From contig NZ_CP087999.1 in NCBI RefSeq assembly GCF_021044625.1, positions 2,063,001-2,127,000 on the forward strand: a stretch of 64,000 nucleotides of DNA. Reading direction: 5' to 3'. A program made the translations under genes and the position numbers. Source of the stretch: Geomonas sp. RF6. Lineage in GTDB: Bacteria; Desulfobacterota; Desulfuromonadia; Geobacterales; Geobacteraceae. Under the pieces are notes generated by a model. It was not told the DNA's origin. It was given only the letters and a program-made list of their open reading frames with translations, and did not search any database. Below are positions 31,353-55,029 of the stretch, one piece after another (position 1 is the first letter of the stretch; each line of letters begins with the position of its first letter).

Positions 31353-32636
<1,284 letters not shown>

Positions 32637-52119: not shown

Positions 52120-52506
52120 ATGATCGATAACAGCGTACTCTTCCCGCAACCGATACAGGCTCCGAGGAGGGGGACCGGATCCACCCCGGCAGCGAAGCAG
52201 GTCGGCGGCGACTCCGCCTTCGCGAGGGTACTGGACCAGAAGCTTCCGGGCGAGCCGGTGCGCTTCTCGCAGCACGCCCTGGAGAGACTGAAGGCGCGCG
52301 GCATAACCCTTTCCGAGACGGACCTGAAACAGCTCTCCGGAGCGGTGGACAGCGTCGCCCAAAAGGGTGGAAAGGAATCCCTCGTAATGACAGGGGATGC
52401 GGCCCTCGTGGTCAGCATAAAGAACAGGACGGTAGTGACTGCGATGGATCGGCAGTCGATGAACGGCCATGTCTTTACCAACATAGATTCGGCAGTCGTC
52501 TTTTAA
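52120..52506 (+). CDS. Flagellar operon protein (TIGR02530-like)
   Basis: A 128-residue protein with the core RFSQHALERLKARGITLSET and ALVVSIKNRTVVTAMDR typical of the conserved flagellar operon protein found between flgD and flgE. Its exact function is unknown. The ATG follows the flgD stop by 1 nt. Confidence 0.85.
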   Translation: MIDNSVLFPQPIQAPRRGTGSTPAAKQVGGDSAFARVLDQKLPGEPVRFSQHALERLKARGITLSETDLKQLSGAVDSVAQKGGKESLVMTGDAALVVSIKNRTVVTAMDRQSMNGHVFTNIDSAVVF

Positions 52507-52532
52507 AAACAGGAACTTTCAAACGTCAACAT

Positions 52533-52583
52533 GGGCTGGCCCTCCTGGAGGAAGCCCGCGGACACCGACCGACAGAGGTGTCC
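52533..52583 (+). promoter_or_regulatory. Conserved 51-nt structured leader, copy 1
   Basis: It begins GGGCTGGCCCTCCTGGAGGA and ends in the hairpin GGACACC/GGTGTCC with loop GACCGACAGA. It matches the copy at 53745-53795 at 47 of 51 positions, and both end exactly 28 nt before the start codon. Confidence 0.85.
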
Positions 52584-52611
52584 ACAACCAAGCTTTGGAG
52601 GCTATAAAGAA

Positions 52612-53487
52612 ATGAGTATTACTTCTGCAATGTACACTGGCGTGAGTGGTCTTTTGAGCAACGCGCAGGCACTGACCGTCATCGGCAACAACATCTCCAA
52701 CGTCAACACCACCGGCTTCAAGAGCGGCAGGACGATTTTCGCCGACATGCTCTCCAACATGTACATGCTCGACTCCCAGATAGGTACCGGTTCGCAGCTG
52801 CAGGCAGTAAACGATATCTTCAGCCAGGGCTCCGCCCAGGTTACCGGCAACGTCACCGACCTCTCCATCGCCGGGAGCAGCTTTTTCGCCCTGAAGGAGC
52901 CGAACACCGCAGCTCCGGTGCCGACGCAGGACCAGGCGCTCCTGACGCGCGCAGGCGCCTTCTCCGTGGACAACAACTACACCCTGGTGAACCCCGCGGG
53001 GTTCCAGGTGCTCGACACCACCGGCAACCCGATCAAGTTCCTTAACACCGGCGTCGCCCCCACCACGGACTTCGCGAAGATCGTGAAGGTGGACCCGAAC
53101 GGCACCATCACCTACCTCGCCACCGACGGCGTCACCCAGAACTTCTACAACGCCAGCGGCGCGGTGGGGATCCCGACCTCCGGCGTCCCGGCCGCGCGCC
53201 TCGCCGTGGTGACCGCTTCCAACCCGGCGGTGCTGAGGAAGGTCGGCGGCTCCCTCTACAAGTCGGTCCCTTCCGCCGGCGTGCCGACGGGAGCTTTCAC
53301 CCTCGCGGCGAACGCTCCGAACGCCACCAGCGAGCGCGTCATCTCCAACTCGCTGGAGGCGAGTAACGTGGACATGGCGAACGAGTTCGTGAACATGATC
53401 CTCACCCAGCGCGCCTACTCGGCAAGCTCGAAGACGATCACCACCACTGACCAGATGACCCAGGAAGTGCTCGGTCTGATCAGGTAA
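52612..53487 (+). CDS. flgE: Flagellar hook/basal-body protein FlgE type, copy 1
   Basis: A 291-residue rod/hook family protein. The N-terminal MYTGVSGLLSNAQ and GNNISNVNTTGFK signatures and the C-terminal SNVDMANEFVNMILTQRAYS motif are clear. It is shorter than usual hook proteins (over 400 residues) and closer to FlgF/FlgG length. The gene starts at ATG 52612 after TTTGGAGGC. A paralogue follows at 53824. Confidence 0.88.
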   Translation: MSITSAMYTGVSGLLSNAQALTVIGNNISNVNTTGFKSGRTIFADMLSNMYMLDSQIGTGSQLQAVNDIFSQGSAQVTGNVTDLSIAGSSFFALKEPNTAAPVPTQDQALLTRAGAFSVDNNYTLVNPAGFQVLDTTGNPIKFLNTGVAPTTDFAKIVKVDPNGTITYLATDGVTQNFYNASGAVGIPTSGVPAARLAVVTASNPAVLRKVGGSLYKSVPSAGVPTGAFTLAANAPNATSERVISNSLEASNVDMANEFVNMILTQRAYSASSKTITTTDQMTQEVLGLIR

Positions 53488-53495
53488 CACCCTGA

Positions 53496-53526
53496 GAGGG
53501 AGGGGGCGGCAAGCGTCCCCTCCCTC
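53496..53526 (+). terminator. G/C hairpin after flgE copy 1
   Basis: GAGGGAGGGG pairs with CCCCTCCCTC. There is no T-run, so it is more likely an mRNA-stabilising or pausing hairpin than a full terminator. The rest of the gap to 53744 contains no gene. Confidence 0.5.
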
Positions 53527-53744
53527 TTCCGTTAAACGCCCCTCCTGAATACCTGCAATGCCGGGGACTGGGGCAGCACCCACGCTGCCACGTTCCTGCT
53601 GTCGAAATGTTGACTCTTTCTGTTGCCGGTCTCTTCTCTGCATTACCCGCAAGTTGCGCCGCCCGGTACTTTCCCGCAGCGCGCGCCGTTACAAGTAGCA
53701 AGGTTACAGCAGCTCCCGATACTCGTGTGAAGGATAAGGATTAC

Positions 53745-53795
53745 GGGCTGGCCCTCCTGGAGGAAGCCCGGGGACTCCGACCGAAAGAGGCGTCC
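53745..53795 (+). promoter_or_regulatory. Conserved 51-nt structured leader, copy 2
   Basis: It begins GGGCTGGCCCTCCTGGAGGA and continues to GGACTCC/GGCGTCC (one mismatch pair) with loop GACCGAAAGA. It ends 28 nt before the second flgE-type gene. An in-frame stop follows, so the conservation is at RNA or DNA level. Confidence 0.85.
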
Positions 53796-53823
53796 CGCAA
53801 CCTGGTCTGCATAGGAGGTAGCG

Positions 53824-55029
53824 ATGAGCGTAACTTCTGCGATGTACACCGGTGTAAGCGGACTCTTAAGCAACAGCCAGGCGATGAGCGTTATCGGCAA
53901 CAACATCGCCAACGTCAACACGACCGGCTTCAAAACCGCCAGGACCCTTTTTGCCGATCTCCTGTCGGACAGCATGGGGAACTTCCAGGTCGGCACCGGT
54001 TCGAGGGTGCAGACATCGGACGAGGTCTTCACCCAGGGCTCGATGCTCACCAGCGGCAATGTGACGGACCTGTGCATCTCCGGAGAATCGTTCTTCGCCC
54101 TGAAGGCGGCGGGGAGCCCATCGCCGGTGACGACGCAGGACGCGGCCTACCTCACCCGCGCCGGCACATTTCATGTGGACGGAAATCTGACGCTGGTAAA
54201 CCCTGATGGCTACCAGGTGCTCGACACCCAGGGGAACCCGATCGTCTTCACCGACACCTTCGGCGCGACCCTGGACACATTCGGCAGCGACCTCGGCACG
54301 ACGACCGTCACGGACATCACCGCAGACCTCGCGAAGGTGAAAGCCCTTGCCGACACGGACGCCACGAAGGTCGATGCTGCAGATGCCGCGTGCACGGCGT
54401 TGACCTCCGCGGCGGCGGCGTATGCCAGCTCGCCGAACGCCGCCACCTCCTCCACGCTGGCCGCTGCCATATCCGCCGCCTACAACGCGATCGTCGCGGC
54501 GAACGCTTCCTCGGCGACCCCGGCGGCCCTCACCACCGCCGCCGGTACCGTCGCCACCCTGAGCGCCGACGCCGCCGCCGCGGCGAACGCATGGAGGACC
54601 TCCTTTGGCAGCGTCTCCAGCATCAGCCAGGACGGTCTCATCACCTACCTCGGCAGGGACGGCGTCACGGAGAACTTCTACAACGTGAGCGGAGGCGCGG
54701 GGATAGCCGCGACCGCCGACAACGCCGGGAAGGTGCAGCGGATCGCGCTGGTGACGGCGGTGGACCCGACGGAGCTGCAGAAGGCGGGGGGCACCCTGTA
54801 CAAGGCGGTTCCCGGCGCCGGTGTGCCGCACGAGGGTTTCAGCCTCGCCGCCAACACCCCGAACGGGACGAGCGAGAAGCTCATCTCCAACGCGCTGGAG
54901 GGGAGCAACACGGACATGGCGTCTGAGTTCGTGAGCATGATCACCACGCAGCGCGCCTATTCCGCAAGTTCTCGAATCATCACCACTACGGACCAGATGA
55001 CCCAGGAAGTGCTTGGGCTGATCAGGTAG
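53824..55029 (+). CDS. flgE: Flagellar hook/basal-body protein FlgE type, copy 2 with insertion
   Basis: A 401-residue paralogue of the preceding gene with the same ends (MYTGVSGLLSNSQ, GNNIANVNTTGFK; SNTDMASEFVSMITTQRAYS). Residues about 151-258 are an extra Ala/Thr/Ser-rich, probably helical segment (for example AADAACTALTSAAAAYASSP) absent from copy 1. AGGAGGTAGCG precedes the ATG. It may be the true hook protein while copy 1 acts as a rod protein, or the reverse. Confidence 0.88.
   Translation: MSVTSAMYTGVSGLLSNSQAMSVIGNNIANVNTTGFKTARTLFADLLSDSMGNFQVGTGSRVQTSDEVFTQGSMLTSGNVTDLCISGESFFALKAAGSPSPVTTQDAAYLTRAGTFHVDGNLTLVNPDGYQVLDTQGNPIVFTDTFGATLDTFGSDLGTTTVTDITADLAKVKALADTDATKVDAADAACTALTSAAAAYASSPNAATSSTLAAAISAAYNAIVAANASSATPAALTTAAGTVATLSADAAAAANAWRTSFGSVSSISQDGLITYLGRDGVTENFYNVSGGAGIAATADNAGKVQRIALVTAVDPTELQKAGGTLYKAVPGAGVPHEGFSLAANTPNGTSEKLISNALEGSNTDMASEFVSMITTQRAYSASSRIITTTDQMTQEVLGLIR

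Follow-up and report, generated by a model that had tools for sequence, protein, structure and literature searches.

Structured, protein-binding mRNA leaders are familiar from ribosomal-protein operons, and to our knowledge the matching of hook synthesis to flagellar assembly beyond the enteric models is an open question. We analysed a 64,000-nucleotide (nt) stretch of Geomonas sp. RF6 (contig NZ_CP087999.1, positions 2,063,001 to 2,127,000; hereafter the window, numbered from its first letter) in which two tandem hook-type flgE genes are each preceded by a copy of a short RNA element. Like the ribosomal-protein leaders, this element is a compact, covarying RNA upstream of a ribosome binding site with a candidate protein encoded in the same operon, but it is not linked to ribosomal genes and the Rfam leader families do not match it.

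The closest flagellar systems are the following. In Campylobacter, CsrA-FliW acts post-transcriptionally through the leader of flaA, the mRNA of an abundant flagellar axial protein; this mRNA can titrate the regulator and is localised at the poles (PMC4894983). The Geomonas element is likewise a leader element on such an mRNA, but the gene is that of the hook, the RNA has two covarying hairpins with fixed apical sequence, its GGA is not loop-exposed, the candidate reader is the flagellar protein TIGR02530, and copies also occur behind genes. The Campylobacter small RNA CJnc230 (FlmE) is also tied to the hook gene transcript, but comes from downstream of flgE rather than from its leader (PMC11187230). 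Putative GEMM elements before Shewanella flgB and fliE are structured leaders of flagellar genes as well (PMC2659441), whereas the present element matches neither GEMM nor any other Rfam family and precedes different genes.

A conserved two-hairpin RNA before flgE

The element, about 53 nt long, is a conserved RNA made of two hairpins. In hairpin 1 the outer stem varies freely, the internal loop places GG[A/C/U] opposite A, and the inner stem, CCUC/GAGG, is near-fixed; in hairpin 2 the stem again varies freely, and the apical sequence CCGACCGANNGA is near-fixed. The loop motifs of the flgE leader element are CCGACCGA and GG. From the covariation and distribution described below, we consider it virtually certain that this is a structured RNA under selection.

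The first-pass annotation of the window had described two near-identical 51-nt leaders, at 52533-52583 and 53745-53795, and pairwise comparison of the blocks agreed: 47/51 positions are identical and each block stops 28 nt short of the ATG of its gene (52612 and 53824). Its drawn fold (a GGGCT/AGCCC stem, a CCTCC/GGAGG region and a hairpin with a GACCGAMAGA loop) coincided with the predicted minimum-energy fold of both copies, a GGGCU/AGCCC stem with CCUC/GAGG within, then a second hairpin with loop GACCGA[C/A]AGA. The features of the locus are as follows.

52120 to 52506, forward strand: TIGR02530 flagellar biosynthesis protein gene, preceding copy 1 (NCBIfam 114.3 bits, cut-off 83.2), with PF12611 at the C-terminus of the protein (52.1 bits, cut-off 21.1); candidate RNA-binding partner of predicted RelE/ParE-like fold (AlphaFold2 model and structure match)
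52532 to 52584, forward strand: RNA element copy 1, flgE1 leader (cmsearch 75.1 bits, E 2.4e-13; among the model-building sequences)
52533 to 52557, forward strand: copy 1 hairpin 1 (predicted fold; outer-stem covariation), with outer stem GGGCU/AGCCC, invariant GG at 52538-52539, unpaired A at 52552, and inner stem of CCUC at 52541-52544 with GAGG at 52548-52551
52560 to 52583, forward strand: copy 1 hairpin 2, GGACACC/GGUGUCC with loop GACCGACAGA at 52567-52576 (predicted fold; covariation)
52597 to 52601, forward strand: Shine-Dalgarno-like GGAGG of flgE1 (sequence)
52612 to 53487, forward strand: flgE1, hook-type, 291 amino acids (aa) (TIGR03506, best-scoring model, 183.5 bits)
53744 to 53796, forward strand: RNA element copy 2, flgE2 leader (cmsearch 74.9 bits, E 2.7e-13; among the model-building sequences)
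53744 to 53770, forward strand: copy 2 hairpin 1, laid out as in copy 1 (predicted fold)
53771 to 53796, forward strand: copy 2 hairpin 2, GGGACUCC/GGCGUCCC with loop GACCGAAAGA at 53779-53788 and one U.C mismatch (predicted fold; sequence)
53813 to 53818, forward strand: Shine-Dalgarno-like AGGAGG of flgE2 (sequence)
53824 to 55029, forward strand: flgE2, hook-type, 401 aa (TIGR03506, best-scoring model, 199.7 bits)

Folding-energy z-scores of the cores were -2.68 (copy 1) and -1.55 (copy 2), and -1.24 and -0.28 with downstream sequence included. The folding energy of the two copies is only modestly special and is insufficient alone to make the case. Compensation is not visible from the window's two copies alone, and hairpin 2 of copy 2 has a U.C mismatch.

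Covariation and near-fixed positions

Compensation was assessed in an alignment of 80 sequences, 79 of them distinct (A5; two weak matches, E 0.13 and 0.32, left out). A5 was fitted to the covariance model and therefore leans towards structure, and relatedness inflates all shuffle tests given here. Both sides vary in 14/18 pairs (shuffled mean 10.7, reached in 2/500 shuffles). Cells with both sides changed numbered 257 against a shuffled mean of 71, and further pair types 45 against 31.2, neither value being reached in 500 shuffles. The covariation score was 0.491 against 0.203 for shuffled alignments (0/500), and slid controls scored at most 0.107. RNAalifold, predicting its own structure from A5, returned nearly identical helices with 11/14 pairs compensatory. 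With the 25 seed rows only, the score was 0.135 against 0.075 (0/500), and pair and type counts lay inside the shuffled range.

A second alignment (A7; 64 chosen matches, 62 distinct) covered flgE-type loci and one flagellin locus and included other phyla (Bacillota and Latescibacterota). Its score was 0.487 against 0.202 shuffled (0/500); 12/18 pairs vary on both sides, a count reached in 31/500 shuffles, and the pair-type count was reached in 36/500. At the pair adjacent to the internal loop (columns 6-30), U-A, C-G and A-U were all seen. Near-fixed columns in A7 were GG (7,8), CC (10,11), U12, AGG (25-27) and the apical CCGACCGANNGA. The near-fixation of single-stranded positions across phyla is as expected for a recognition site. 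GG(7,8) and CC(48,49), a possible loop contact, are both near-invariant. These data, together with the position before flgE in relatives described below, bear out the annotation's proposal of a selected RNA structure tied to flgE.

Four loci of families f20 and f22 (L156, L157, L159, L160) replace the loop-closing G46.A55 with A.C and keep A47 and G54; the swap suggests a non-standard pair at that step. In two loci (L031, L035) hairpin 2 is followed, ahead of the ribosome binding site, by an additional GC-rich hairpin (GGCGGCAG...).

Distribution across genomes and phyla

At E <= 0.1 a DNA search at family level matched 37/48 genomes; the matches include weak ones that are probably due to chance. 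At all 31 strong-match loci (L003, L004, L010-L038; L003 and L004 both resolve to window copy 1) the block lies 76-102 nt upstream of a hook-type gene start. Weak DNA matches within the own genome (L005-L009) were rejected as not the motif, and model R2 at E <= 0.01 found the two window sites only.

Covariance model R1, built from 25 sequences, detected the element at E <= 0.01 in 108/141 genomes of the order and in 174/277 genomes of the class (one genome per species). At E <= 0.001 it was found in 17/395 genomes of a phylum sample, three of which (G302, G472, G589) lie outside the class. Compared with R1 in the class, model R2 gained G028 (an XopAW-type copy) and G247 and lost G148, G171 and G177, where the R1 matches had E of 0.004-0.01. 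Presence of the element in the class went with that of FliM: 168 genomes had both, six the element only, 29 FliM only and 74 neither (n = 277; Fisher p ~1e-35, phylogeny not corrected).

A pattern scan of GTDB returned at least 120 stretches, so that the distribution in Bacillota is a lower bound. Among the matches listed, R2 accepts 36 in 80 of the loci and 16 in the other 40; one of these 16 (L280, 24.3 bits) was taken as chance. At least nine accepted matches lie outside the phylum. Those among the matches listed are from Brevibacillus (L192, L213, L220), Sporosarcina (L210, L245, L252), and metagenome-assembled genomes of Clostridia (L238), Oscillospiraceae (L288) and Latescibacterota (L199). 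A TIGR02530-type gene is upstream in 9/9 of these, and in 8/9 the element has a hook-type gene no more than 90 nt downstream; the L238 locus ends early, but the start of a hook-like frame is visible after the element. The element is far older than a local duplication.

The annotation had not recognised the class of the RNA, and the Rfam 15 scan gave no match reaching the gathering score in the window; permissive scans of 52400-53900 and of eight loci were also empty at the element. A structured RNA at flgE was unreported in the PMC titles and abstract openings searched, and the candidate RNAs of Weinberg et al. 2017 were compared via Rfam only. The main text of a non-coding RNA study of 50 genomes, including a Geobacter genome, holds none of the terms "flgE", "flg" and "hook" (PMC11109978). 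Relative to Rfam 15 and the PMC literature searched, the element is novel.

Gene setting of the element

A regular-expression (regex) census of the loci of the order gave 141 sites, of which 140 were accepted and one, at window position 32506, was rejected as chance, covariance-model searches of the window having left it unreported. The census misses weak copies (e.g. L081, L082, L083, L149) and leaves out the site in G133. Most accepted sites (110/140) stand before flgE, and 106 of these 110 have TIGR02530 no more than 700 nt upstream (101 assigned by rule and five by eye: L063, L329, L360, L366 and also L367, which is truncated at the contig end). The four flgE sites with no TIGR02530 within 700 nt upstream are window copy 2 and the first copies in L113-L115, which argues that the element belongs with flgE and is not a mere tail of TIGR02530. 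The flgE start lies a median of 30 nt past the regex end of the element (range 17-50, n = 105). Elsewhere in the class and in a second class, a hook-type frame likewise follows the element at 32/32 loci inspected (L089-L112, L154-L161).

The window hook-type genes (52612-55029) are short and in tandem, with one element copy apiece. Similar tandems occur in L113-L115, where the first hook gene is ~263 aa and each gene again has its own copy.

The remaining accepted sites have other partners. One (L119:3001-3054, in G125) precedes a flagellin-like gene (MAIGDISLTSG...) in place of flgE, and 29/140 lie beside serine/threonine-rich (Ser/Thr-rich) genes, 28 behind the gene and one (L080) before it. 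Among the loci with neither flgE nor flagellin, the element stands 13-59 nt past the stop of a long frame, which was read as the Ser/Thr-rich gene, in 30/33 (exceptions L080, L083, L149). At several of these 3'-side loci a hairpin resembling an intrinsic terminator follows the element, although some of the terminator calls are doubtful.

In L121 the Ser/Thr-rich gene preceding the element belongs to the XopAW family (NF041410; NCBIfam 146.7 bits, cut-off 120) and has EF-hands. A repeat protein before the element in L069 had no XopAW match, and other partner genes were unmatched or scored lower. XopAW was above cut-off in 15/141 genomes of the order, and in 13 of these 15 the element follows the XopAW gene directly, on the same strand (in G028 with R2 only; exceptions G125 and G138). 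Sub-cut-off XopAW matches occur both with and without the element. The Ser/Thr-rich proteins are presumably flagellar type III export substrates.

In genus g23 (L073, L075, L088, L121, L124, L145, L147) a stretch like CAGCCTGCTTCTCATGGGAGC lies ~30-100 nt past the 3'-side copy; the CAGCCTG of this stretch and the CAGGCTG of hairpin 1 are complementary, making an alternative pairing possible. A terminator-like hairpin past the element in L081:3001-3120 holds AGGCTGGCCCTC, almost the 5' half of hairpin 1.

Co-occurrence with TIGR02530 and its predicted fold

TIGR02530 and the element were found in the same genomes of the phylum sample (an identical 17/395, taking the two 395-genome samples as the same genomes). 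Flagella were considered in 80 genomes, 78 from the other classes of the phylum sample plus G472 and G589. FliM was present in 45/80, and 42 of these 45 had neither the element nor TIGR02530. Therefore, in this phylum, the element tracks TIGR02530 rather than flagella.

'TIGR02530' as a term is in no paper of the PMC literature searched. In one report, Gmet_3104 of G. metallireducens is listed as a flagellar operon protein of unknown function, DUF3766, that adjoins flgD (PMC4033198); by name and place it is probably TIGR02530.

PF12611 was found in 37/37 aligned TIGR02530-type proteins. AlphaFold2 on these 37 sequences gave a model with mean predicted local distance difference test (pLDDT) score of 75.6, with residues 51-128 at ~86-93 by blocks and elements in the order beta-alpha-alpha-beta-beta-beta. 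When compared by VIA-align with Foldseek's best 1000 chains, the model had RelE/ParE-type toxins at ranks 1-6 (Z 5.8-6.0, 68-72 residues, root-mean-square deviation (rmsd) 2.6-3.5), among them PrpT and RelE1 (Z 6.0, 68-70 residues, rmsd 2.6-3.0). DUF4258 was touched by 31/37 homologues at E <= 1, with a best E of 0.0018; these are weak profile matches. The TIGR02530 profile against PDB sequences gave chance-level matches to designed proteins only. The modelled fold of TIGR02530 is provisionally taken as likely RelE/ParE-like: its predicted element order may be that of the RelE/ParE/HigB toxins (Z ~6), but its gene is located in a flagellar operon. RelE-type folds include mRNA interferases.

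Candidate functions of the element

We tentatively propose that the element is the site of an RNA-binding protein, most likely TIGR02530. The broader part of this proposal, that a protein rather than a small molecule is bound, we predict as probable. TIGR02530, encoded just upstream at nearly all flgE sites examined, would dock on the element, and in the hook operon docking would set FlgE output from the flgE part of the message. Behind Ser/Thr-rich genes, some of them encoding XopAW-type calcium-binding proteins, the element could mark, stabilise or titrate. A more speculative extension, which we rate as rather doubtful, is a portable RNA tag in the 5' or 3' untranslated region of mRNAs for substrates of flagellar type III export (the hook protein, one flagellin and XopAW-type calcium-binding proteins), read by a repurposed RelE-fold TIGR02530 and coupling translation or location to the state of the export gate. 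The element, an RNA in 174/277 genomes of the class and in three phyla with no Rfam entry, points to a specific candidate partner protein. It would link a flagellar-operon protein of toxin-like predicted fold to RNA, and connect the flagellar system with XopAW-type genes of environmental bacteria.

We consider two rival explanations unlikely. One is a riboswitch, an aptamer through which a small molecule or ion such as cyclic di-GMP or Ca2+ would control flgE and some genes for secreted proteins; the compact two-hairpin fold, with near-fixed unpaired bases shortly before the ribosome binding site, would suit it. EF-hand calcium-binding proteins among the products of some partner genes are in keeping with this, and putative cyclic di-GMP (GEMM) elements reportedly precede Shewanella flgB and fliE (PMC2659441). 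Yet the gene partners in the order are limited to flgE, one flagellin and Ser/Thr-rich genes; such a narrow association argues against a general second messenger, which would be expected before more gene types. Moreover, 28/140 sites lie behind the gene, and the Rfam families, riboswitches included, were unmatched at the element. The other is intercistronic processing, which the position between genes or at 3' ends would suit and in which an RNase would cut at or beside the hairpins and protect the flgE transcript on its 5' side or the Ser/Thr-rich transcripts at their 3' ends. Dosage might be raised in this way or a small RNA released, and TIGR02530, given its RelE-like predicted fold, could itself be the nuclease. 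A precedent is the Campylobacter small RNA cut from flgE mRNA by RNase III (PMC11187230). However, apical sequences that are near-fixed across phyla need more than a hairpin.

A CsrA target, with FliW, as in flagellin leaders, is much less probable still. The annotation had judged the GGA motifs suited to CsrA, both hairpin 1 and the ribosome binding site contain GGA, and Campylobacter flagellin mRNA is under CsrA-FliW control (PMC4894983). The 3' GGA is indeed largely conserved (A in 59/64 rows), but its GG is paired in the inner stem rather than exposed in a loop. After the 5' GG comes A, C or U, and 42/45 flagellated genomes of the 80-genome set are without the element. Recent duplication of flgE with its leader, the RNA being unselected, would account for the 47/51 identity of the window copies but is refuted as an explanation of the element. 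Absence of the block before other flgE genes and lack of compensation had been named in advance as signs of duplication, and both checks came out the other way. The element is present in most relatives, as a rule in a single copy per genome, other phyla have it too, compensatory changes are seen, and the tandem hook genes of the window and L113-L115 each have their own copy. The suggested pairing of CCUCC with the ribosome binding site found no general support. Across 104 leaders, in a ligand-free energy model, CCUC paired within hairpin 1 with mean probability 0.71 and near the ribosome binding site with 0.11. An anti-Shine-Dalgarno switch was therefore rejected as a general mechanism, with such pairing dominating in a few leaders (0.69-0.92 in the six highest). 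A sigma-54 or sigma-28 promoter, judged against the consensus only and without a promoter scan, was also rejected; insertions and deletions together with compensatory changes fit an RNA rather than a promoter.

Several observations weigh against docking by TIGR02530. The copies behind Ser/Thr-rich genes are unfit for simple control of translation start, and it is because of these 3'-side copies that a protein-docking site is favoured over a pure translation switch. Co-occurrence may reflect joint inheritance of one operon type, the 17 genomes not being independent. Pantothenate kinases appear at Z 5.7 in the same structure list, so that Z near 6 may mean a common arrangement only, and Foldseek gave no match to the TIGR02530 model at E <= 0.001 (best E 0.38). 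Eight regions (G043, G053, G060, G066, G102, G178, G238, G267) that showed no TIGR02530 and no recognised flgE start were left uncounted as tests. A variant in family f10 also bears on the proposal. Its ten loci (L154, L155, L311-L317, L319; R2 24.9-43.6 bits) have a weaker form of the element, in which hairpin 1 is kept and the apical sequence of hairpin 2 is changed. In the five f10 genomes of L311-L315, TIGR02530 was not found in the ~8 kb covered, and the frame ahead of the leader has an end resembling that of a putative flgD. Either the f10 partner is encoded elsewhere or hairpin 1 is read by another factor. At the other five f10 loci TIGR02530 is present, and hairpin 2 is likewise changed.
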